Of a stretch of 32,850 nt of DNA, positions 6,696 through 19,005 are shown piece after piece; the first letter of the stretch is position 1, and each line of letters begins with the position of its first letter. A program made the translations under genes and the position numbers. This DNA is from an uncultured Blautia sp. GTDB taxonomy: Bacteria; Bacillota; Clostridia; Lachnospirales; Lachnospiraceae. The DNA lies in NCBI GenBank assembly GCA_948436455.1, contig CAOJIB010000014.1:1-32850 (forward strand). Reading direction: 5' to 3'. The notes under the pieces are model-generated. The model did not search any database and was not told the DNA's origin. It saw only the letters and a program-made list of their open reading frames with translations.

Positions 6696-7358
6696 TCATC
6701 CTGCTTTTTTCATTAACTCGTAGACCTGCCGCTGCCGTTCTTTGGCCAGCGTCGGATGATCCGCCGGATTGTACAGGGAGGGCGCGTTGGGAATGCCGGC
6801 CAGCATCACGCATTCCTCCTCGTTCAGACCGGAGATTTCCTTTCCGAAATACCCCAGGCTAGCCTGGGCCGCACAGTCGTAGCCATTTCCGAAATAAATT
6901 GTATTGACGTACATTTCCAGGATTTCTTCCTTTGTAAAGGCCCGCTCCAGGGCAAAGGCCATAAACACCTCCGCCACCTTCCGTCCAAAGACCTTTTCCT
7001 GGGTGAAATATAAATTCTTCGCCAGCTGCTGAGTGATTGTGCTTCCCCCTTCCACCAGCGCCCGGGCACGGATGTCTGTAATCACCGCCCGGGCAATGGC
7101 GATGGGATCGATCCCCGGATGGCGATAGAACCGCCGGTCCTCCGCCGAAACCACCGCCTTTTTATAGATTTCAGGCATTTGGGCAAGGGCCGTATAGCCG
7201 TCCTTTGCCTGAATCTGCTCCTGCTTCTCTTCCAGGCTTTCTGCCTCCAGCGCCGTCCGGTACATTGCGTAACCGTTTTGAACCACCAACACGCTCCAGA
7301 GAATCCCCGCCATCAAAAGCATCGCCGCTACATTCCGTAAAAATTTTCTGATCTTCAT
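6696..7358 (-). CDS. mtgA: Monofunctional peptidoglycan glycosyltransferase (GT51 family)
   Basis: This membrane-anchored enzyme polymerises lipid II into glycan strands but lacks a transpeptidase domain: at 220 residues it is only the GT51 module. A single membrane anchor spans about residues 9-27. GT51 motif 1 reads AEDRRFYRHPGIDP with the catalytic Glu73; motif 2 is GGSTITQQLAKN (104-115); later motifs include ILEMYVNTIYFGNG. I chose the ATG at 7358 (MKIRKFLRN), preceded by GAGG, over an in-frame TTG at 7397. Its promoter closely mirrors that of the BceAB-type operon 4 kb away, which suggests induction by lipid II-targeting antibiotics or envelope stress. A terminator follows at 6636-6658, so it is monocistronic. 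The symbol is by family, not proven orthology. Confidence 0.9.
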   Translation of the reverse strand: MKIRKFLRNVAAMLLMAGILWSVLVVQNGYAMYRTALEAESLEEKQEQIQAKDGYTALAQMPEIYKKAVVSAEDRRFYRHPGIDPIAIARAVITDIRARALVEGGSTITQQLAKNLYFTQEKVFGRKVAEVFMAFALERAFTKEEILEMYVNTIYFGNGYDCAAQASLGYFGKEISGLNEEECVMLAGIPNAPSLYNPADHPTLAKERQRQVYELMKKAG

Positions 7359-7416: not shown

Positions 7417-7489
7417 AGTATAAAAATTCCCTTTCCGAATTTCCATCGATACGTCTTACATTTTTTCCGGAAAACTTACATCTATGTAA
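7417..7489 (-). promoter_or_regulatory. Promoter with BceR-type operator upstream of the glycosyltransferase gene
   Basis: Plus-strand TTACA-TCTA-TGTAA (7476-7489) fits the TNACA-N4-TGTAA consensus remembered for BceR-like response regulators. A second CTTACA half-site lies at 7455-7460, exactly 20 bp from the CTTACA of the palindrome. The minus-strand -10 TATACT is at 7422-7417, with a weak ATGGAA -35 (7446-7441, 18 bp spacer), as expected for an activator-dependent promoter. Every spacing is identical to the site at 11595-11668. Confidence 0.7.
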
Positions 7490-7497
7490 TGATGCTG

Positions 7498-7519
7498 GGG
7501 TCAAAAAGTATTTTGACCC
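7498..7519. repeat. Perfect 9-bp inverted repeat between azlD and the glycosyltransferase gene
   Basis: The arms are GGGTCAAAA and TTTTGACCC around the four bases AGTA. It lies 75 nt after the azlD stop and 9 nt from the BceR-type palindrome. There is no U-tract on either side, so it is not a standard terminator; an mRNA 3'-end hairpin or a protein-binding site are alternatives. Confidence 0.55.
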
Positions 7520-7593: not shown

Positions 7594-7914
7594 TTATCCA
7601 GCAAAGCGAAGCAGCGCTTCTGTCAGAAATACCGCCGCACAGGCGCAAATTGCCACAGTCAGCAAACTTTTTTCCTTATACGCCACGCAAAGGGCGATGA
7701 TAAGAGCCGCCGCGCCGGAAATCCAACTGGACGTCGCCGTCAGAATCGCCGGGAAAGTCATCGCCGCCAGACTTGCGTAGGGCACGTAATATAAAAAGGA
7801 TTTTAAAAACGGATGGGTAATCTCCTTACGAAAAAGCACCAGCGGCAGCGCCCGGATCAGATAGGTCACACCCGCCATCACCAATATGTACAGAAAAAAA
7901 CGGTCGTTGCTCAT
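7594..7914 (-). CDS. azlD: AzlD-family branched-chain amino acid exporter, small subunit
   Basis: This 106-residue hydrophobic protein has about four predicted membrane segments and the family feature ITYLIRALPL near the N-terminus (here VTYLIRALPLVLF). AzlD proteins act with AzlC in export of branched-chain amino acids or their analogues; the exact substrate cannot be read from sequence. Its ATG overlaps the azlC stop codon (ATGA, 4 nt), so translation is coupled. GGAGGAAGG just upstream serves as ribosome binding site. The pair has its own promoter upstream of azlC. A palindrome without U-tract follows 75 nt after the stop. Confidence 0.9.
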   Translation of the reverse strand: MSNDRFFLYILVMAGVTYLIRALPLVLFRKEITHPFLKSFLYYVPYASLAAMTFPAILTATSSWISGAAALIIALCVAYKEKSLLTVAICACAAVFLTEALLRFAG

Positions 7915-8618
7915 CCTTCCTCCTCCTTTATCGGGCAGAACCAGGCGGCCAGGCCGGCGATTGCTACCGTTGTAATGATAATGACAAATCCAGAAGATAT
8001 TTCCCGAAGCACTGGAAGCAGCCGAAACAACGTGCTAAGGAGCATCGCGCCGATCACCGCCAGCCGCACGGACCGCTCCTTCTTCGCCGGCGGGATAATT
8101 ACCGCCAGAAACATGCCGTAGATCGCCACGCTTAGAGCGCTCAGCCAAAATTCCGGCAAAAGATTTCCCAATACCGCGCCGCATAAGGTGCCAAACGTCC
8201 ACCCGGGAATAGCCATGCTCATGGCCCCGTAGGAATACCACGGACTTAAACGGCCCTTCTGGCTGACGCTGACGCCGAAAATCTCATCCGTTACGCCAAA
8301 AGCCACAAAAAACCGATGCACAAAGGGCACGCGTCGATCCAGCTTCTGGGACAGGGCGAAAGACATCAGGCAATAACGCATATTAATGACCAACTGGGTC
8401 AGCGCCAGCTCATACAAAGAGCCGCCTCCGACGATCAGAGGAAGCCCCGCAAACTGGCCGGCTGAGGTCAGATTCGTCAGGGAAATCACCGTCGCCTGCC
8501 AGGCGTTCAACCCTGCCAGAATCGCCATAATACCAAAGGTAAAGGACACGGCAAAATAGCCAAGGCCAATGGGAACGCCATCCTTCATTCCTTTTTGAAA
8601 ATCACTCCATCTATTCAA
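7911..8618 (-). CDS. azlC: AzlC-family branched-chain amino acid exporter, large subunit
   Basis: AzlC is the larger membrane subunit of the AzlCD exporter. The 235-residue product contains the typical N-terminal stretch GVPIGLGYFAVSFTFG and the segment NLTSAGQFAGL, followed by several membrane helices. The frame is open up to 8657, but those codons overlap the -10 element at 8648-8653. TTGGAGGTG is placed about 8 nt before a TTG at 8618, so that TTG is taken as the start. The stop overlaps the azlD start. The nearby ilvBN genes make branched-chain amino acids, but 18 kb separates them and no shared control element is visible. Confidence 0.9.
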   Translation of the reverse strand: MNRWSDFQKGMKDGVPIGLGYFAVSFTFGIMAILAGLNAWQATVISLTNLTSAGQFAGLPLIVGGGSLYELALTQLVINMRYCLMSFALSQKLDRRVPFVHRFFVAFGVTDEIFGVSVSQKGRLSPWYSYGAMSMAIPGWTFGTLCGAVLGNLLPEFWLSALSVAIYGMFLAVIIPPAKKERSVRLAVIGAMLLSTLFRLLPVLREISSGFVIIITTVAIAGLAAWFCPIKEEEG

Positions 8619-8647
8619 AAAAGCACCTCCAACCTTCTTTCCCGTCC

Positions 8648-8676
8648 ATTCTACCATTCCCGACAGATGGTTTCAA
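8648..8676 (-). promoter_or_regulatory. Promoter of azlCD
   Basis: On the minus strand TTGAAA, a 17-bp spacer and TAGAAT with an upstream TG (TGGTAGAAT) make a strong vegetative promoter. Transcription would start near 8641, only about 23 nt before the TTG start of azlC, which supports that start choice. Confidence 0.75.
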
Positions 8677-8750: not shown

Positions 8751-10757
8751 TCAATCGACGATCTTATAATAAACCCGGGCAGTAATCCCATAGATCGCCG
8801 CATATACTAAAGCGAATATAACGGCAAACGCCGCGGTACAGCAACCGAACAGCTTGACATTATACATATTCAGCGTAGCTAAAAGCCGGCTGATCATCGG
8901 AAACGCAAAAGCGATGTGTATCCATGCCGTTAAAAGCGGCAGGAAGAATACCAGAAGCACCTGACTTTTAATCGACTGGCGCACTTCCTTTTTACTCATG
9001 CCCACCTTCTGCATAATCTCGAACCGCTCCCGATCGTCGTATCCCTCGGACACCTGTTTATAATAGATGATCAGCACCGTTCCCATCAGGAACAGGATGC
9101 CAAGGAACAGCCCCAAAAAGAACAGGCCGCCGTACAGCGTATAGCATTCCTGGTAATTCAGCTGCTTATAATCCCAGCGCATGGACAGCTCTTCGTCGCC
9201 CACCGTGCGAAGCTTTTCCTGCAGCGCATAGTCCAGCGCTTCTTTTTCCTCGCCGCTTCCCTTCACATCCATCTGCACAACCGAGCAGATTTGGCTGGCT
9301 GCCTTGCCGTAAACGTCGTTTTGCAGTTTCCACAGCTCTTCTACGACCTTCATATCCCGGACAACCATATAGTAGCTGTTGCTCCCCACGTAGATGGTCG
9401 CCGACCCGTCGTACGGGCCCTTTTCCAGCTTCTCCTGGATCTGGAATTCCTTTCCGCCCACAGAGATTTTTTCAAAAGCATACTGCGCGCCCGCCACTGG
9501 ATAAAGCAGGATTTCATCCTCCTTTAGCGTCTTTTCCTCTCCCACGATCTGGTTATAATCCTCCAGCGGGATCACCGATATCGTCACCATATCTTCTATA
9601 CGCACGTCCGCATCTGGATCGTACGCCTCTATCCGGAAGTCTGCTCCCCCGCCAAAAGCCGTAAACTCCAAACGGGTGAAGCTTTCCAAATACGTAACCT
9701 CCAGGCCTTTTTCCTGCGCCGTCTCCTGCATCATCTTGGCTAGCGCATCCTTCCATTCCCTGTGCGAGCTGTTCCACAGGGCATACTGCACCTCATGGGG
9801 ATAACGAGTGTCCATAATATCTCCCATGCCCGCGTACATGGATAAGGTGCCAGATACCATGATCAGAACACCGGTGCTTAAAATACAGATATTCGCCAGG
9901 CCCACGGCGTTTTGCTTCATCCGGTATAAAAGGCCGGAAACGCTTGTAAAATGCCGAGTCTTGTAATAAAATTTCTTATTCCAGCGCAGCATTTTAAGAA
10001 GAGCGATGCTCCCGGCGGTAAACAGACAGTACGTGCCGATCATGACCAGAATAACCGCTACGAAAAATAAAAGCAGCGCCTGCAGGGGGCTTTCCGTCGT
10101 CACCGCGATGTAATAGCCACCGCCCAGGCTTAAAAGCCCCAAAAGCACCAAAAGCGCTTTCGCCCGCGGCTCCCGCTCGCCGGCGCTTTGGCCGCGCAGC
10201 AGCTCGATGGGGTTCGCCAGCTGGATCTGCCACATATCCAGAGCCAGCGTCAGAAGAAAAACACAAAGAAACCAGGCGCAGGTGCCCGCCAGCGCCGGCA
10301 TGGAAATCATAAATCCGAAGGGCGCCGGTACACGCAGCAGCTTTAAAAGCGCCAGAAACAAAAGCTTACTTCCCAAAATCCCCAGAAACAGGCCGACAAA
10401 AAAGCTGATGCAAATCACGTAGAACGTTTCCCAGCAAAGAGTCCGGCGAATATGGCATTTCTCCATGCCCAGCACATTATACAGGCCAAATTCCTTCTTG
10501 CGGCGTTTAATCAGAAAGCTGTTGCTGTAGCAAAGAAAGATCAGGGAAAAAATACCGATCACGATGATCCCCAAAAGCAGGATAATCCCCAAAACCGCCC
10601 GTCCCGGCACCTGATCCATATCCGGATGAACAAACATGTAAAACATCATATAAAACATCGCAATATTAAAGATGCAGGTCAGGATATAGGGAATATATAT
10701 ACGTCGGTTTTTCCAGATATTTTTCCCCGCAAGCTGCGGATAAAAGAGACTACGCAT
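8751..10757 (-). CDS. BceB-type ABC transporter permease (peptide antibiotic resistance/sensing)
   Basis: The 668-residue protein has the BceB layout: an N-terminal helix after RSLFYPQLAGKNIWKNRR, several membrane helices up to about residue 310, a large extracellular domain of roughly 220-240 residues (from about MYAGMGDIMDTRYPHE to SMRWDYKQLNYQE), and a C-terminal FtsX-like block including RERFEIMQKVGMSKKEV. BceB permeases bind target-peptide complexes through the extracellular domain and signal to a histidine kinase. The ATG at 10757 overlaps the end of the ATPase gene by 8 nt and is preceded by GGTGAG; a GTG at 10766 is an alternative. No BceS/BceR pair is present in the window. The bacitracin-type role is inferred from family and promoter. 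Confidence 0.87.
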   Translation of the reverse strand: MRSLFYPQLAGKNIWKNRRIYIPYILTCIFNIAMFYMMFYMFVHPDMDQVPGRAVLGIILLLGIIVIGIFSLIFLCYSNSFLIKRRKKEFGLYNVLGMEKCHIRRTLCWETFYVICISFFVGLFLGILGSKLLFLALLKLLRVPAPFGFMISMPALAGTCAWFLCVFLLTLALDMWQIQLANPIELLRGQSAGEREPRAKALLVLLGLLSLGGGYYIAVTTESPLQALLLFFVAVILVMIGTYCLFTAGSIALLKMLRWNKKFYYKTRHFTSVSGLLYRMKQNAVGLANICILSTGVLIMVSGTLSMYAGMGDIMDTRYPHEVQYALWNSSHREWKDALAKMMQETAQEKGLEVTYLESFTRLEFTAFGGGADFRIEAYDPDADVRIEDMVTISVIPLEDYNQIVGEEKTLKEDEILLYPVAGAQYAFEKISVGGKEFQIQEKLEKGPYDGSATIYVGSNSYYMVVRDMKVVEELWKLQNDVYGKAASQICSVVQMDVKGSGEEKEALDYALQEKLRTVGDEELSMRWDYKQLNYQECYTLYGGLFFLGLFLGILFLMGTVLIIYYKQVSEGYDDRERFEIMQKVGMSKKEVRQSIKSQVLLVFFLPLLTAWIHIAFAFPMISRLLATLNMYNVKLFGCCTAAFAVIFALVYAAIYGITARVYYKIVD

Positions 10758-11517
10758 GGCTCTCACCGCCTGTCGCCAGCATGGTCAGGGTATCCGATAT
10801 CATATGATACATTTCCTGATTGCTCATATTTCCCCGATAGATCTGATGGAAAACCTCCCCGTCCTTAATAAACAGGATTCGTCCCGCCCGGCTGGCCGCC
10901 ATCGCGCTGTGGGTCACCATCAAAAGCGTCTGGCCGGCTGCGTTAATCTCGGAAAAAATGTCCAGAAGCTGCCCGGCCGCCTTGGAGTCCAGCGCCCCCG
11001 TCGGCTCGTCCGCCAAAAGCAGCCGCGGCTCCGTAATCAGCGCCCGGGCCACCGCCGTCCGCTGCTTCTGGCCGCCGGAAACCTCGTAGGGATATTTTTC
11101 CAGAATATCCCCGATGCCAAGCTTGTGCGCCAGGGGACGGATCTTCTGCTCCATTTCCCGATAATCCTTCCTAGCCAGCACCAGCGGCAGGTAAATATTG
11201 TCCCGAAGGCTGAAGGTATCCAGCAGATTAAAATCCTGGAACACGAAGCCCAGATGCTCCCGGCGGAACATGGCAATCTCCTTATTGCTGATCTTTAAAA
11301 TACTTTTTCCATCCAGCAAGACCTCGCCGTTCGTCGGCCGATCCAACGCCGCCAGTATATTCAAAAGCGTCGTCTTTCCCGAACCGGACTCTCCCATAAT
11401 CGCCACATACTCTCCCTGTTCCACGCTAAAACTCACATTCGTCAGCGCCTGCACCTTGTGGCCGCCGAACCGGGTGGTATAGATTTTCTTCACATTCGAT
11501 ACTTCCAGTAAAGCCAT
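10750..11517 (-). CDS. BceA-type ABC transporter ATP-binding protein
   Basis: This 255-residue ATPase powers the BceB-type permease encoded immediately downstream. It has Walker A GESGSGKT (42-49), Q-loop Gln94 in FVFQDFNLLD, signature VSGGQKQR (146-153) and Walker B LLLADEPT (166-173), and the family-typical FNLLDTFSLRDNIYLPL. The frame is open to 11682, but AGGAGG lies 9 nt before the ATG at 11517, and the product MALLEVSNVKKIYTTRFGG has the standard N-terminus. The upstream codons overlap the promoter and operator. Expression is probably driven by a BceR-like regulator acting at 11633-11668. Relatives include general macrolide-type exporters, but the partner permease points to the Bce class. 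Confidence 0.92.
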   Translation of the reverse strand: MALLEVSNVKKIYTTRFGGHKVQALTNVSFSVEQGEYVAIMGESGSGKTTLLNILAALDRPTNGEVLLDGKSILKISNKEIAMFRREHLGFVFQDFNLLDTFSLRDNIYLPLVLARKDYREMEQKIRPLAHKLGIGDILEKYPYEVSGGQKQRTAVARALITEPRLLLADEPTGALDSKAAGQLLDIFSEINAAGQTLLMVTHSAMAASRAGRILFIKDGEVFHQIYRGNMSNQEMYHMISDTLTMLATGGESHA

Positions 11518-11594
11518 CCTTTCTTCCCTCCTGTCTGTGCGCTCCCGAAAAATAGAAGCGCCCCGTCCTGTTGCTTTTCTTATTATCTGCCTAC

Positions 11595-11668
11595 AGTATA
11601 GAAAAAAGCACGGCTCCCTGCCATAGCTTTGACTTACATTTTTCTTCGGCGGCTTACAAAATTGTAAG
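11595..11668 (-). promoter_or_regulatory. Promoter with BceR-type operator upstream of the BceAB-type operon
   Basis: GCTTACAAAATTGTAAGC (11652-11669) is an 18-bp perfect palindrome that contains TTACA-AAAT-TGTAA. A further CTTACA half-site lies 20 bp away at 11633-11638. On the minus strand the -10 TATACT is at 11600-11595 and a weak ATGGCA -35 at 11624-11619. Half-site to -10 distance, half-site spacing and -35 position are all identical to those at 7417-7489. Confidence 0.8.
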
Positions 11669-11699
11669 CTTTGGAAAATCAATCCGTTTTTTCCGCTCC

Positions 11700-14826: not shown

Positions 14827-17067
14827 TTATTTCGCCGGCCGTGTCCCTTTCGTATCCCGCTTGGATAATTTCAGCCGATTTAAGGCCACGCTCTTTCCCT
14901 CGATTTCGACGGTATATTCCTTGTGCGCCTCCAAAAGATAGGCGTGCTCCAGGCTGTCTCCTTCTTCTAAACGCATGCCCCGAACGCCGACGGCGTTCTT
15001 CTTCTTCGTAGGAATTTCCTGCTTTAAAAAGCGCAGAAACCAGCCGTCTTTGCTCTGCAGGACAACGAATTCCATATTCTCGCACCGTTCGGCAAAAATC
15101 AGCCGGTCGCCTTCGCCAAGCTTCGTAGCCTCAATGGTCTTTCTAGTAGAAACCTCGAATTCGCCGCCCTCTACGATCTTGAGCATCCCGCCGGCCGTCG
15201 CAAAAAGGAATTGGCTCTGCAATACCTCGGCCATACTGCTCACACAGAGGATACGCTCCTCCTGGCTGTTGTAGTTGCTGACATTATCCAAGGGAACGCC
15301 CTTGTCCCGGAATTTTCCCTGGGGAATGTCCGCAACCTTTACCGTATGCATCTTCCCGCCTTCGGTGAACAGGCAGATTCTGTCCGTATTCATACAGGGG
15401 AACAGATATTTATATTCGCTGTGGGCTGCCTCCTGATTCCGCTCGTAGATTGCTTTATCCACAGTTTTTACATAACCGAACCGGTCCATTAAAAGCCAGA
15501 CCTCCTGGGCCTTCGGCTTTTCCTCCTCATAGACTGCTTCCGCGGCGTTTTCAATCGCCGTGCGGCGCGCTCTGGCGTATTCCCGCTTAACGCCGTCCAG
15601 CTCGCGGATGATCACCCCGGCCATAGAATCATAATTATTCAAGATATCCTCGTAGCGGGCGATATTTTCCAACGTTTTCTTATGCTCCCCTTGCAGGGCT
15701 TCGATCTCCAGGCCGATCAGCCGGTACAGACGCATTTCTAGAATCGCCGTCGCCTGACGCTCGGTAAAGCAGAGCTTTTTCGCCTGCCGTTCGCTGGTCT
15801 TTGTCTTAAAGCGGATACCCTCGGTGGCGCCGTGGATCAGGCAGTCCTTCGCCTGAGCCTGATTCTTGCTTCCCCGCAGGATTTCAATGATCAGATCAAT
15901 GACGTCGCAGGCCTTGATCAGTCCTTCCTGCACCTCCCGCTTTTCCTCCTCCCGGGCAAGAAGCGTCTGGTATTTCCGGGTGGCGATCTCAAATTGGAAA
16001 TCCACGTGGTGCTCGATCACCTGCTTTAAATTCAAGGTTTCCGGCCGGCCGTCTGCCACCGCCAGCATATTGACCCCGAAGGTATCCTCCAATCGAGTTT
16101 TTTTGTAGAGCATATTTATCAGATTTTCCACGTTAGCGTCCTTGCGCAGCTCCAGCACAATCCGGATGCCCTCTTTGGAGGACTGATTAGAAATGTCTGT
16201 AATATCGGTGGTCTTTCTCGCTTCCACCAGAGCGGCCACATCGTTTAAAAACTTGCCGATCCCTGCCCCCAGCATCGGATACGGGATCTCGGTGATCACC
16301 AGATGACGGCGGCCGCCTTTTCCCTTTTCTTCCATCACCTTGCCCCGGACGCGGATTTTCCCTACGCCTGTTTCATAGATTTTCAAAAGCTCGTCCCGAT
16401 TGACCACGATACCGCCCGTGGGGAAATCCGGCCCCTTAATGTAGCGGAGCAAGCCCTTTATACTGATCTGCGGATCCTTCATATACGCCTTTACCGCATC
16501 TACCACTTCTCCTAAATTGTGAGGCGGAATGCTGGTAGCCATGCCTACGGCAATCCCGTCCGCCCCGTTCAGCAGCAGATTGGGCACCCGCGCCGGCAAT
16601 ACCTCCGGCTCCCGTTCCGTCTCGTCGAAATTCGGCAAAAAATCAACGACGTTTTTGTCCAGATCGCCCAAGTAGACCTCTTGGGCCAGCTTCGTTAGAC
16701 GTGCCTCCGTATAACGCATGGCCGCCGCTCCGTCGCCTTCGATGGAACCGAAATTCCCGTGACCGTCCACCAGGATCTGTCCTTTTTTAAAATCCTGGGC
16801 CATCACTACCAAGGCCTCGTAAATGGAACTGTCTCCGTGAGGATGGTATTTGCCCATGGTGTCGCCCACAATACGGGCGCATTTGCGATAAGGCCTGTCG
16901 TAACGGATCCCCAGCTCATACATATCGTATAATGTCCGGCGCTGCACCGGTTTTAGTCCGTCCCGCACGTCGGGCAGCGCCCGGGCCACGATCACGCTCA
17001 TCGCATAATCAATATAAGATTTCTGCATCAGCTCCGCATAATCGGTGCGGATAATCCTATCGCTCAT
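14827..17067 (-). CDS. parC: DNA topoisomerase IV subunit A (ParC-type)
   Basis: This is the DNA breakage-reunion subunit of a type IIA topoisomerase that separates linked chromosomes. In the 746-residue product the active-site tyrosine is Tyr119 in [10 protein letters not shown], and the quinolone-pocket sequence [13 protein letters not shown] has Ser80 and Glu84, wild-type residues in ParC numbering. The C-terminal beta-pinwheel (from about [15 protein letters not shown]) lacks the GyrA box QRRGGKG, which argues for topoisomerase IV and against gyrase. AAAGGGGAGGAG precedes the ATG at 17067; only 12 nt separate it from parE. Clostridia typically have gyrBA near dnaA and a second pair like this one elsewhere. 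Confidence 0.9.
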
Positions 17068-17079
17068 AGCTCCTCCCCT

Positions 17080-19005
17080 TTATATATCCAGCTCGGCGTC
17101 CTGGGCATGGGCGTAGATAAACGCCTTTCTCGGCGGCACCTCCGAGCCCATCAGCACCTGCGTGACGCTGGAGGCCAGCCGGGCGTCCTCGATTTCCACC
17201 CGCTTTAATCTCCTGGTTTCCGGATCCAGCGTCGTCTCCCAGAGCTGCTCGGCGTCCATTTCCCCCAGTCCCTTATAACGCTGCAGGGTAAAGCTGCCCG
17301 CCCGGTGCTTTTTCCGGTACTTTTCCAGCGCCTTGTCGTCGTAGAGATATTCCTCCGGCCCTTTTTTGGGCATGGCCTTATAAAGGGGCGGCATCGCTAT
17401 GTAAATATGCCCTTCGTAGATCAGCTCCGGCATAAACCGGTAAAACAAAGTCAGAAGCAGCGTGGAAATATGCGCCCCGTCCACATCCGCATCCGCCATA
17501 ATAATAATCTTATCGTAACGCAGCTTTGTGATATCGAAATCATTTCCGTACCCCTCGGAAAAACCGCAGCCAAAGGAATTGATCATCGTCTTGATCTCCG
17601 CGTTGGCCAGCACCTTGTCAATCGTGGCCTTCTCCACATTGAGGATCTTACCTCGGATGGGCAGAATCGCCTGATAGCTTCGATCCCGGGCCGTCTTGGC
17701 GGAGCCTCCGGCGGAATCGCCCTCCACGATGAAGATCTCGCAGCGGGAAGGATCCCGCAGCTCGCAATTCGCCAGCTTCCCATTGGAATCGAAGGAAAAT
17801 TTCTGCTTGGAGAGCAAGTTCGTCCTGGCCCGCTCTTCCGTCTTTCGGATCTTCGACGCCCGCTCGGCGCAGGAGAGAACCGTTTTTAAAGTTTCCAGAT
17901 TCCGGTCAAAATACAAGACCAGCTGTTCGCCGGCCACCTTGCCGGTAACCCGCAGCGCGTCCTGATTATCCAGCTTCGTTTTTGTCTGGCCTTCAAATCG
18001 GGGCGCCGGATGCTTCAAAGAAATCACTGCCGTCATACCGTTGCGGATATCCGCGCCGGTAAAATTCGGCTCTTTTTCTTTTAGAATCCCCAGTTGGCGG
18101 GCATAGGTATTCATCACGCCGGTAAAGGTGGTCTTAAAGCCGGTGAGATGGGCACCGCCCTCGGCATTGTAGATATTATTGCAAAAGCCCAGCACATTTT
18201 CATGAAATTCATCGGTAAACTGGAACGCCGCTTCCACGGTAATCCCTTCCGCTTCCCCTTTAAAATACACCGGGTCGTGAAGCACTTGGGCGTTTGCATT
18301 CAGATCCCGGATATAGCCGATGATCCCATCCGGCTCCTGATAGTCCAGAATTTCCGGCTCGGCGCCCCGCAGATCTTCGAAATGGATCAGCAATTGGGGA
18401 TTCAAATACGCCGTTTCATGCAGACGGCTCTTCACCTCCGTAGCGGAAAAACGGGTTTTTTCAAAGATTTCCCCGTCCGGCAGAAAATTAATACAGGTAC
18501 CCGTCTTTCTCGTCTTTTTTAGCCTAGGCAAAAGGCCGCTCTCCAGCTTTACCACAGGAACGCCCCGCTCGTAACGATCGTGATGCACATACCCGTCCCG
18601 GCTGACCTGGATATCCAGATATTCAGATAGCGCGTTCACCACGGAGGAACCGACGCCGTGCAGGCCGCCGCTGGTCTTATAGACGCCTTCGTCGAATTTG
18701 CCCCCGGCGTGCAGCGTGGTGAATACCAGCCGCTCCGCCGCCATCCCCTTTTCATGCATATCCACCGGGATCCCCCGGCCGTCGTCGGCCACCGTGCAGG
18801 AGCCATCGCGCTCCAGCACCACCGAAATCCGGCTGCAAAAGCCGGCCAGATGCTCGTCCACCGCATTGTCTACGATCTCATAAATCAAGTGGTTCAGCCC
18901 CTTGCGGGACACGCTGCCTATGTACATGCCCGGACGCTTTCGTACCGCTTCCAACCCTTCCAGCACTGAGATGCTTTCCGCCGTATAATTCGTATTCTTT
19001 CCCAT
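17080..19005 (-). CDS. parE: DNA topoisomerase IV subunit B (ParE-type)
   Basis: This is the ATPase/TOPRIM subunit that partners ParC. The 641-residue product has the GHKL ATPase features: RKRPGMYIG, Glu43 and Asn47 in EIVDNAVDE, DDGRGIP (75-80 region), GGLHGVG (114-120 region), and the QTKTKL loop near residue 340. The TOPRIM domain has EGDSAGG (428-434) and DADVDGAH starting at 505, and QRYKGLGEM marks the C-terminal part. Length and pairing with a GyrA-box-less A subunit favour ParE over GyrB, although sequence alone separates them poorly. GAGG precedes the ATG at 19005. It lies 14 nt after the HAD gene and 12 nt before parC, so the three form one operon. Confidence 0.9.
   Translation of the reverse strand: MGKNTNYTAESISVLEGLEAVRKRPGMYIGSVSRKGLNHLIYEIVDNAVDEHLAGFCSRISVVLERDGSCTVADDGRGIPVDMHEKGMAAERLVFTTLHAGGKFDEGVYKTSGGLHGVGSSVVNALSEYLDIQVSRDGYVHHDRYERGVPVVKLESGLLPRLKKTRKTGTCINFLPDGEIFEKTRFSATEVKSRLHETAYLNPQLLIHFEDLRGAEPEILDYQEPDGIIGYIRDLNANAQVLHDPVYFKGEAEGITVEAAFQFTDEFHENVLGFCNNIYNAEGGAHLTGFKTTFTGVMNTYARQLGILKEKEPNFTGADIRNGMTAVISLKHPAPRFEGQTKTKLDNQDALRVTGKVAGEQLVLYFDRNLETLKTVLSCAERASKIRKTEERARTNLLSKQKFSFDSNGKLANCELRDPSRCEIFIVEGDSAGGSAKTARDRSYQAILPIRGKILNVEKATIDKVLANAEIKTMINSFGCGFSEGYGNDFDITKLRYDKIIIMADADVDGAHISTLLLTLFYRFMPELIYEGHIYIAMPPLYKAMPKKGPEEYLYDDKALEKYRKKHRAGSFTLQRYKGLGEMDAEQLWETTLDPETRRLKRVEIEDARLASSVTQVLMGSEVPPRKAFIYAHAQDAELDI

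Follow-up and report, generated by a model that had tools for sequence, protein, structure and literature searches.

The window, the whole analyzed stretch of 32,850 nucleotides, encodes on its minus strand a BceAB-type ABC transporter, an AzlCD pair and a GT51 peptidoglycan glycosyltransferase (Table 1). For bceA, the TTG at 11682 given in the list of open reading frames was rejected and the ATG at 11517 was taken as the start. The azlCD genes (7594-8657) follow bceAB on the same strand, which places a branched-chain amino-acid exporter beside a Bce transporter. The order bceAB-azlC is found in five members of the genus (the window genome, G066, G077, G083 and G023), and the bceAB transcript may run through to azlC and stop there.

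Table 1. Genes and promoter elements of the mtgA and bceAB region, in window coordinates
Feature	Position	Strand	Description and evidence
mtgA-like gene	6696..7358	minus	monofunctional peptidoglycan glycosyltransferase of family GT51; 220 aa from the ATG at 7358; Pfam Transgly 1e-60 (on the longer ORF)
azlD	7594..7914	minus	Pfam AzlD
azlC	7911..8657	minus	Pfam AzlC
bceB	8751..10766	minus	FtsX-type permease of the BceB/PsdB family; Pfam FtsX; PDB PsdB 9ugg 3e-55, BceB 7tcg 3e-31
bceA	10750..11517	minus	ABC ATPase, ATG at 11517; Pfam ABC_tran 6e-37 (on the longer in-frame ORF, 10750-11682)
mtgA -10 element	7417..7422	minus	TATACT
mtgA ATGG	7443..7446	minus	conserved, inside TCGATGG, just upstream of the -35 position; matrix consensus nTCGATGG
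mtgA secondary half-site	7455..7460	minus	TGTAAG; 14 bp separate it from the palindrome upstream
mtgA primary operator palindrome	7475..7490	minus	ATTACA-N4-TGTAAG, ATTACATAGATGTAAG; also before 15 other mtgA genes
bceA -10 element	11595..11600	minus	TATACT
bceA secondary half-site	11633..11638	minus	TGTAAG
bceA primary operator palindrome	11653..11668	minus	CTTACA-N4-TGTAAG, CTTACAATTTTGTAAG

The MtgA protein contains the Transgly domain of Pfam alone, without a transpeptidase domain, and its relatives in PDB include PBP1A (the best match) and a monofunctional glycosyltransferase. GT51 enzymes are characterized by the motifs ED..F..H.G, GGSTITQQ, RK..E and K..ILE.Y.N, and in a 10-row alignment their key residues are invariant or nearly so. 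The score against the NCBIfam model TIGR02070 (mono_pep_trsgly) is 129.1 bits, below the curated cut-off of 182.65, and thus the name mtgA is used loosely here. No two-component genes were observed among the window proteins that were run against domain and family profiles, and a search of the whole window with Rfam at the gathering threshold returned only a tRNA. At 14827-19005 the window also encodes a type II topoisomerase pair, possibly not the housekeeping gyrase, since the A subunit does not reach the equivalog cut-offs for GyrA, and the B subunit passes subfamily cut-offs only.

Comparison of the mtgA (7417-7490) and bceA (11595-11668) promoters revealed a common layout: NTTACA-N4-TGTAAG, N14, TGTAAG, N8, ATGG, N20 and TATACT. 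In both promoters 32 bases separate the second half-site from the -10 element, and the ATGG follows the first eight of them. The identical distances proposed by the first-pass annotation were therefore found for every element (half-sites, palindrome, ATGG and -10), and the bases between them differ as it had described: the two spacers are identical at 6/14 and 13/32 positions, and the 40-base flanks at 16/40 and 11/40. Two details had to be amended. The outer half-site CTTACA, ascribed to both promoters, is present before bceA, whereas mtgA has ATTACA, one base off; and the ATGG, ascribed to the -35 element, is conserved at the same distance but lies just upstream of the -35 position and is not itself a consensus -35. 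Such a two-site architecture, a palindrome with an additional half-site, was reportedly described for BceR-like promoters of B. subtilis by Fang and colleagues in about 2017. Judged by its letters, the palindrome fits the consensus TNACA-N4-TGTAA, which was published with EMSA support for regulators of bceAB-type genes (PMC9020739), and AnnTTACnAnnnnGTnAG, a consensus from L. paracasei for which binding was measured (PMC10858260), is of the same kind.

In the window genome (2.51 Mb, 87% complete), the mismatch-free pattern TTACA-N4-TGTAAG-N14-TGTAAG occurs only at the mtgA and bceA sites. The palindrome CTTACA-N4-TGTAAG alone is perfect at two places, before bceA and at the end of a bceS gene on contig 87, and is one base off at five more, mtgA among them. 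As the training set for a positional weight matrix, 24 bceAB promoters were taken, including that of the window and no mtgA promoter; L071, which lies inside an open reading frame and was treated as a chance occurrence, and L070, which is off the matrix expression, were not used. By this matrix the mtgA upstream region reaches 50.4 bits, against a maximum of 9.8 among 5000 sequences simulated from it with a first-order Markov model, and only the mtgA and bceA promoters reach at least 15 bits within the window. Between azlD and the mtgA operator, at 7498-7519, lies a nine-base inverted repeat (GGGTCAAAA/TTTTGACCC) without a clear T-run, which may be the bceAB-azlCD terminator or another operator.

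A census of the full operator pattern in 397 genomes of the family yielded 87 distinct sites, spread over 77 of them; the reversed pattern was absent from all 397. The sites precede 68 bceA genes, one bceB, seven mtgA and 11 other genes: seven VanZ-like genes recognized by Pfam (four of them VanZ-RDD), an eighth assigned by its likeness to another member of this set (L298 and L297, respectively), and one gene each for a member of the beta-lactamase family, an alpha/beta hydrolase and a GT2 enzyme. Within the genus, 24 distinct sites were found in 21 of 64 genomes, with no occurrence of the reversed pattern in these 64; they precede 16 bceA genes (one of them, L093, assigned by its position before bceB), one bceB, five mtgA, one TraX-like gene and one further open reading frame. 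Pooled, with the two window sites that occur in both counts entered once, these are 109 sites: 85 before bceA or bceB, 11 before mtgA, eight before VanZ-like genes and five before others. The spacing is selected in both the census and the training set, because the two window sites were the source of the search pattern; the identity of the downstream gene is not selected by this pattern, and bceA genes were assigned with the BceA of contig 87 as the BLAST reference. That the palindrome belongs to an unrelated regulator, its likeness to the bceA promoter being a coincidence or a general promoter feature, is highly improbable in view of 87 true against zero reversed occurrences, 69 of them before bceA or bceB, and of the control upstream regions, none of which exceeds 12.0 bits (449 other open reading frames in 54 loci). 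The census defines the operator precisely enough to predict Bce regulons throughout the family to which the window genome belongs.

Some sites of the census precede genes of other kinds. VanZ-like genes stand behind the Bce-type operator at eight of the 87 family sites (L297, L298, L320, L322, L331, L329, L335 and L343), which suggests that VanZ-like proteins are further Bce targets. In one genus member the full operator precedes a gene for a TraX-like membrane protein (L099, G064:C1:3407301-3407373; PF05857). In another (L100, G023:C145:29044-29116) it has the half-site TGTCAC and precedes an open reading frame, behind which a second one resembles by eye the metallophosphoesterase beside the L057 module.

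The same matrix was applied to mtgA genes of related genomes. The family sample comprised 60 places in 59 of the 397 genomes; 11 with frames of at least 700 aa were dropped as bifunctional, leaving the window and 48 loci. The upstream regions of 11 of these 48 exceed 30 bits (34.8-56.7), and 37 are without the site; two of the latter, L260 (13.5) and L261 (12.3), score just above the control maximum and were not counted. A close mtgA is present in seven of the 64 genus genomes, and five of the seven carry the full site (the window and four others with 40.1-57.3 bits). The two without it are G027 and G029; a palindrome in G029, GTCACAAATATGTAAG, was not counted, being degenerate and lacking the rest of the site. 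In all, 16 mtgA genes of nine genera bear the site, at about 35-57 bits. Among more distant GT51 loci, 29 of 80 were examined, 11 of these closely, and no palindrome was found within 500 bp upstream of GT51 in the 29 (about 15 of them monofunctional; some contigs begin closer). The site is thus not a general feature of mtgA regulation, since it is absent at 37/48 family, 2/7 genus and 29/29 distant loci: the operator is kept before mtgA in some lineages and missing in most. The first-pass annotation had named absence of the site from mtgA orthologues of close relatives as evidence against its reading; the orthologues keep it in 5/7 cases in the genus, window included, and in 11/48 in the family.

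The operator also precedes the canonical bceAB in all ten site-bearing mtgA genomes tested (of 16), with scores of 33-59; 14 of 15 places were scored, the second piece of a gene in G476 (L391) being left out. A second, divergent bceAB in G077 (L392) is without the operator and scores -8.3.

A tree of 67 MtgA proteins places that of the window in a clade of eight from five genera that all have the site (support 93/80), with G077 and G066 in a starred inner clade (98/83). The distribution of the site on this tree requires six changes, at least three of them forced by starred branches; both one gain with losses and several gains are possible. By the labels used, 36 of the 67 proteins have neither the site nor a linked module, where modules with other permeases share the label "bce" with the strict cases, L106 was labeled bce by eye, and the label none was given to L238, which has a DUF1093-like gene upstream, and to L239, which has an ABC ATPase there. 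In the window genome, 1.4 kb separate the end of bceB from the mtgA start, and the mtgA site might accordingly be viewed as a functionless relic of a recent duplication or rearrangement beside bceAB on this contig; this is hardly credible, however, given the diverged spacers, the all-site clade of eight and the same architecture before mtgA in G077, G066, G083 and G023, where the mtgA flanks examined gave no match to BceB or BceS, and matches to an ABC ATPase or a receiver domain only at a low identity of 24-29%. Chance and recent duplication, both doubted by the first-pass annotation, thus appear unlikely.

Physical linkage provides a second connection between mtgA and bce genes. At L244 (G482) mtgA lies inside the operon, which runs bceR-bceS-[operator]-mtgA-bceA-bceB; bceRSAB lies directly before mtgA at L234; and at L222, 1.8 kb separate mtgA from an upstream bceAB of the same strand. 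The order is bceA-bceB-DUF1093-mtgA at L105 and bceA-bceB, a regulator-like open reading frame and mtgA at L115, and at L058 bceRSAB is near mtgA with opposite-strand genes between. Neither the site nor bce genes were found directly upstream of mtgA at L107, L108, L110, L112, L113 and L118, and L254 has only a regulator and a kinase. Modules with other permeases, resembling L057 or L109, precede mtgA at L057, L109, L111, L240, L242, L245, L250 and L253, some of them cut by contig ends. They were not accepted as strict BceAB modules, the permease not being BceB-like (MacB_PCD by Pfam at L057); as regulator-kinase-ABC modules, they form a separate link of mtgA with two-component and ABC genes. 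The DUF1093 gene beside mtgA, a kind of gene also called YxeA-like, was observed at L105 (5610-5960, by Pfam), as a BLAST match at L238 and as look-alikes by eye at L106 and L115.

The bceRS genes adjoin bceAB in many of the site-bearing operons, in contrast to the window genome. With the BceR of L244 as the query, the best match in the window genome is on contig 28 (54%), where a BceR of 222 aa (Response_reg and Trans_reg_C) is paired with a BceS-like HATPase_c kinase of 333 aa that has, by eye, two hydrophobic stretches and a short loop near the N-terminus. No bceAB match was found within the 11.4 kb examined around this pair; bceAB sits on contig 14. Over 152-167 residues, the contig-28 BceR shares 73-76% identity with those encoded beside the operator at L080 and L087. 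Relatives of the pair with the same neighbors (amidohydrolase-like and ACT-like genes, by eye) occur in G066, G077, G083 and G023. In G066, bceRS (BceR 72% identical to that of contig 28) directly precedes [operator]-bceAB-azlC, and since these genes are contiguous there, the window genome looks like a split form of the G066-type operon. A canonical BceR (at least 260 bits) is present in 16/16 genomes with a site-bearing mtgA versus 26/37 other mtgA genomes, a weak association (Fisher p 0.011) that ignores kinship and uses a threshold placed where the listed scores leave a gap. From these comparisons, the regulator of the mtgA and bceA sites is likely the lone BceRS pair of contig 28.

The window genome contains a second bceRS, on contig 87 (L064, G000:C87:774-789), where bceA is cut by the contig end and a perfect CTTACA-N4-TGTAAG palindrome overlaps the end of bceS. 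The acting regulator might be this second Bce-like pair, or both pairs might cross-regulate through the same operator, as was reported from L. paracasei, where PsdR binds ApsR promoters (PMC10858260). We regard this as unlikely, though less so than coincidence or a relic: the contig-87 palindrome has neither a half-site at N14 nor the matching -10 spacing (matrix score -4.3), and the contig-28 BceR is the closer relative of the BceR proteins of the other operator-bearing loci compared, with 54-76% identity to these and 40% to the contig-87 BceR.

It is therefore very probable, as far as genome comparison can tell, that the site before mtgA serves as an operator for a BceR-type response regulator, just like that of bceAB, and that the Bce regulon of the window organism and several of its relatives includes mtgA. 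The first-pass idea of one response regulator for a peptide transporter and a lipid II polymerase is well supported, for the lineages that bear the site, by the comparative evidence: the site before five of seven genus mtgA genes, its presence before bceAB in ten of ten genomes, and mtgA genes inside or behind bce operons. Since the same DNA switch precedes both, the bceAB pump and mtgA are probably turned on together in the window bacterium and some relatives.

The predicted pathway would proceed as follows: (i) BceAB would encounter a peptide antibiotic in complex with an intermediate of the lipid II cycle, (ii) the resulting cycling of BceAB would activate the intramembrane kinase BceS, (iii) phosphorylated BceR would occupy the palindrome, bind cooperatively to the half-site next to the -35 position and recruit RNA polymerase, (iv) bceAB, possibly with azlCD, and mtgA would rise together, (v) the transporter would free the lipid target, and (vi) the extra polymerase MtgA would use up surface-exposed lipid II and keep glycan synthesis going. 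A lipid II-consuming polymerase under a Bce switch suggests either lowered exposed target or sustained wall synthesis during attack. The benefit of MtgA may also be another one: mtgA could be co-regulated as predicted and yet serve wall repair or remodeling, or compensate for a lost polymerase, rather than lower the exposed lipid II. This is quite possible, if somewhat short of probable; the cell-wall stress regulator VraR of S. aureus upregulates mgt and pbpB (PMC9380581), and we found nothing decisive against it.

One operator recurs before bceAB, monofunctional GT51 and VanZ-like genes, and hence it seems reasonably likely that the Bce regulon of the family is more than a transporter switch that induces itself and forms a broader envelope-stress regulon, in which target protection, lipid II polymerization and a VanZ function are deployed together, and that the link of mtgA with Bce was gained or lost several times by promoter capture and operon insertion. 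The extension to peptidoglycan polymerization in some lineages reads as a new form of the Bce-type regulon. The first-pass annotation knew of no described Bce-type regulon with a GT51 enzyme, and in the open-access papers searched we found none either, PMC8913810 and PMC10399904 included; a monofunctional glycosyltransferase is upregulated in S. aureus, but by VraR. In S. agalactiae, a nine-gene BceRS regulon was described with the proposal that BceRS adjusts surface-exposed lipid II (PMC11502775); the words glycosyltransferase and penicillin-binding do not occur in the main text of that paper. A co-regulated lipid II polymerase would make this idea testable by gene removal. Published Bce systems comprise transporters that protect lipid targets and, in some species, surface-charge genes (PMC7864038, PMC10858260); dlt and mprF were reported to be BceR-dependent and pbp2 LiaR-dependent (PMC7864038). 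Further accounts concern VirR of Listeria (PMC7828314), the structure of Bce modules and flux sensing (PMC10314905), Bce subfamilies (PMC3023708) and bceAB counts in gut commensals (PMC10877564).

The BceRS-BceAB system of B. subtilis resembles the one described here in its BceB/PsdB-family permease, BceA ATPase, short BceS-like kinase, OmpR-type BceR and operator before bceA. As to the systems of S. aureus, VraR is a regulator of the LiaR/NarL type with an operator other than the Bce-type one, and the transglycosylases SceD and IsaA are not known to be GT51 synthases. VraTSR is similar in being a cell-wall stress regulator that upregulates the monofunctional glycosyltransferase mgt together with pbpB (PMC9380581), whereas it belongs to a different regulator family and is not known to have a BceAB sensor. 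GraXRS-VraFG is Bce-like, with a palindromic operator and a wide regulon that includes wall-acting genes, but its transglycosylases SceD and IsaA are listed as autolysins (PMC3128592). The ApsRS and PsdRS systems of Lacticaseibacillus paracasei likewise form a multi-target BceR-like regulon, and their consensus fits the core of the window sites; the targets reported there, derAB, psdA, dlt and mprF, are transporters and surface-charge genes and include no peptidoglycan polymerase (PMC10858260). In B. subtilis, BceR was reported to regulate only bceAB (PMC7864038), whereas in the window genome mtgA has the same promoter-operator and bceRS lies apart from bceAB.
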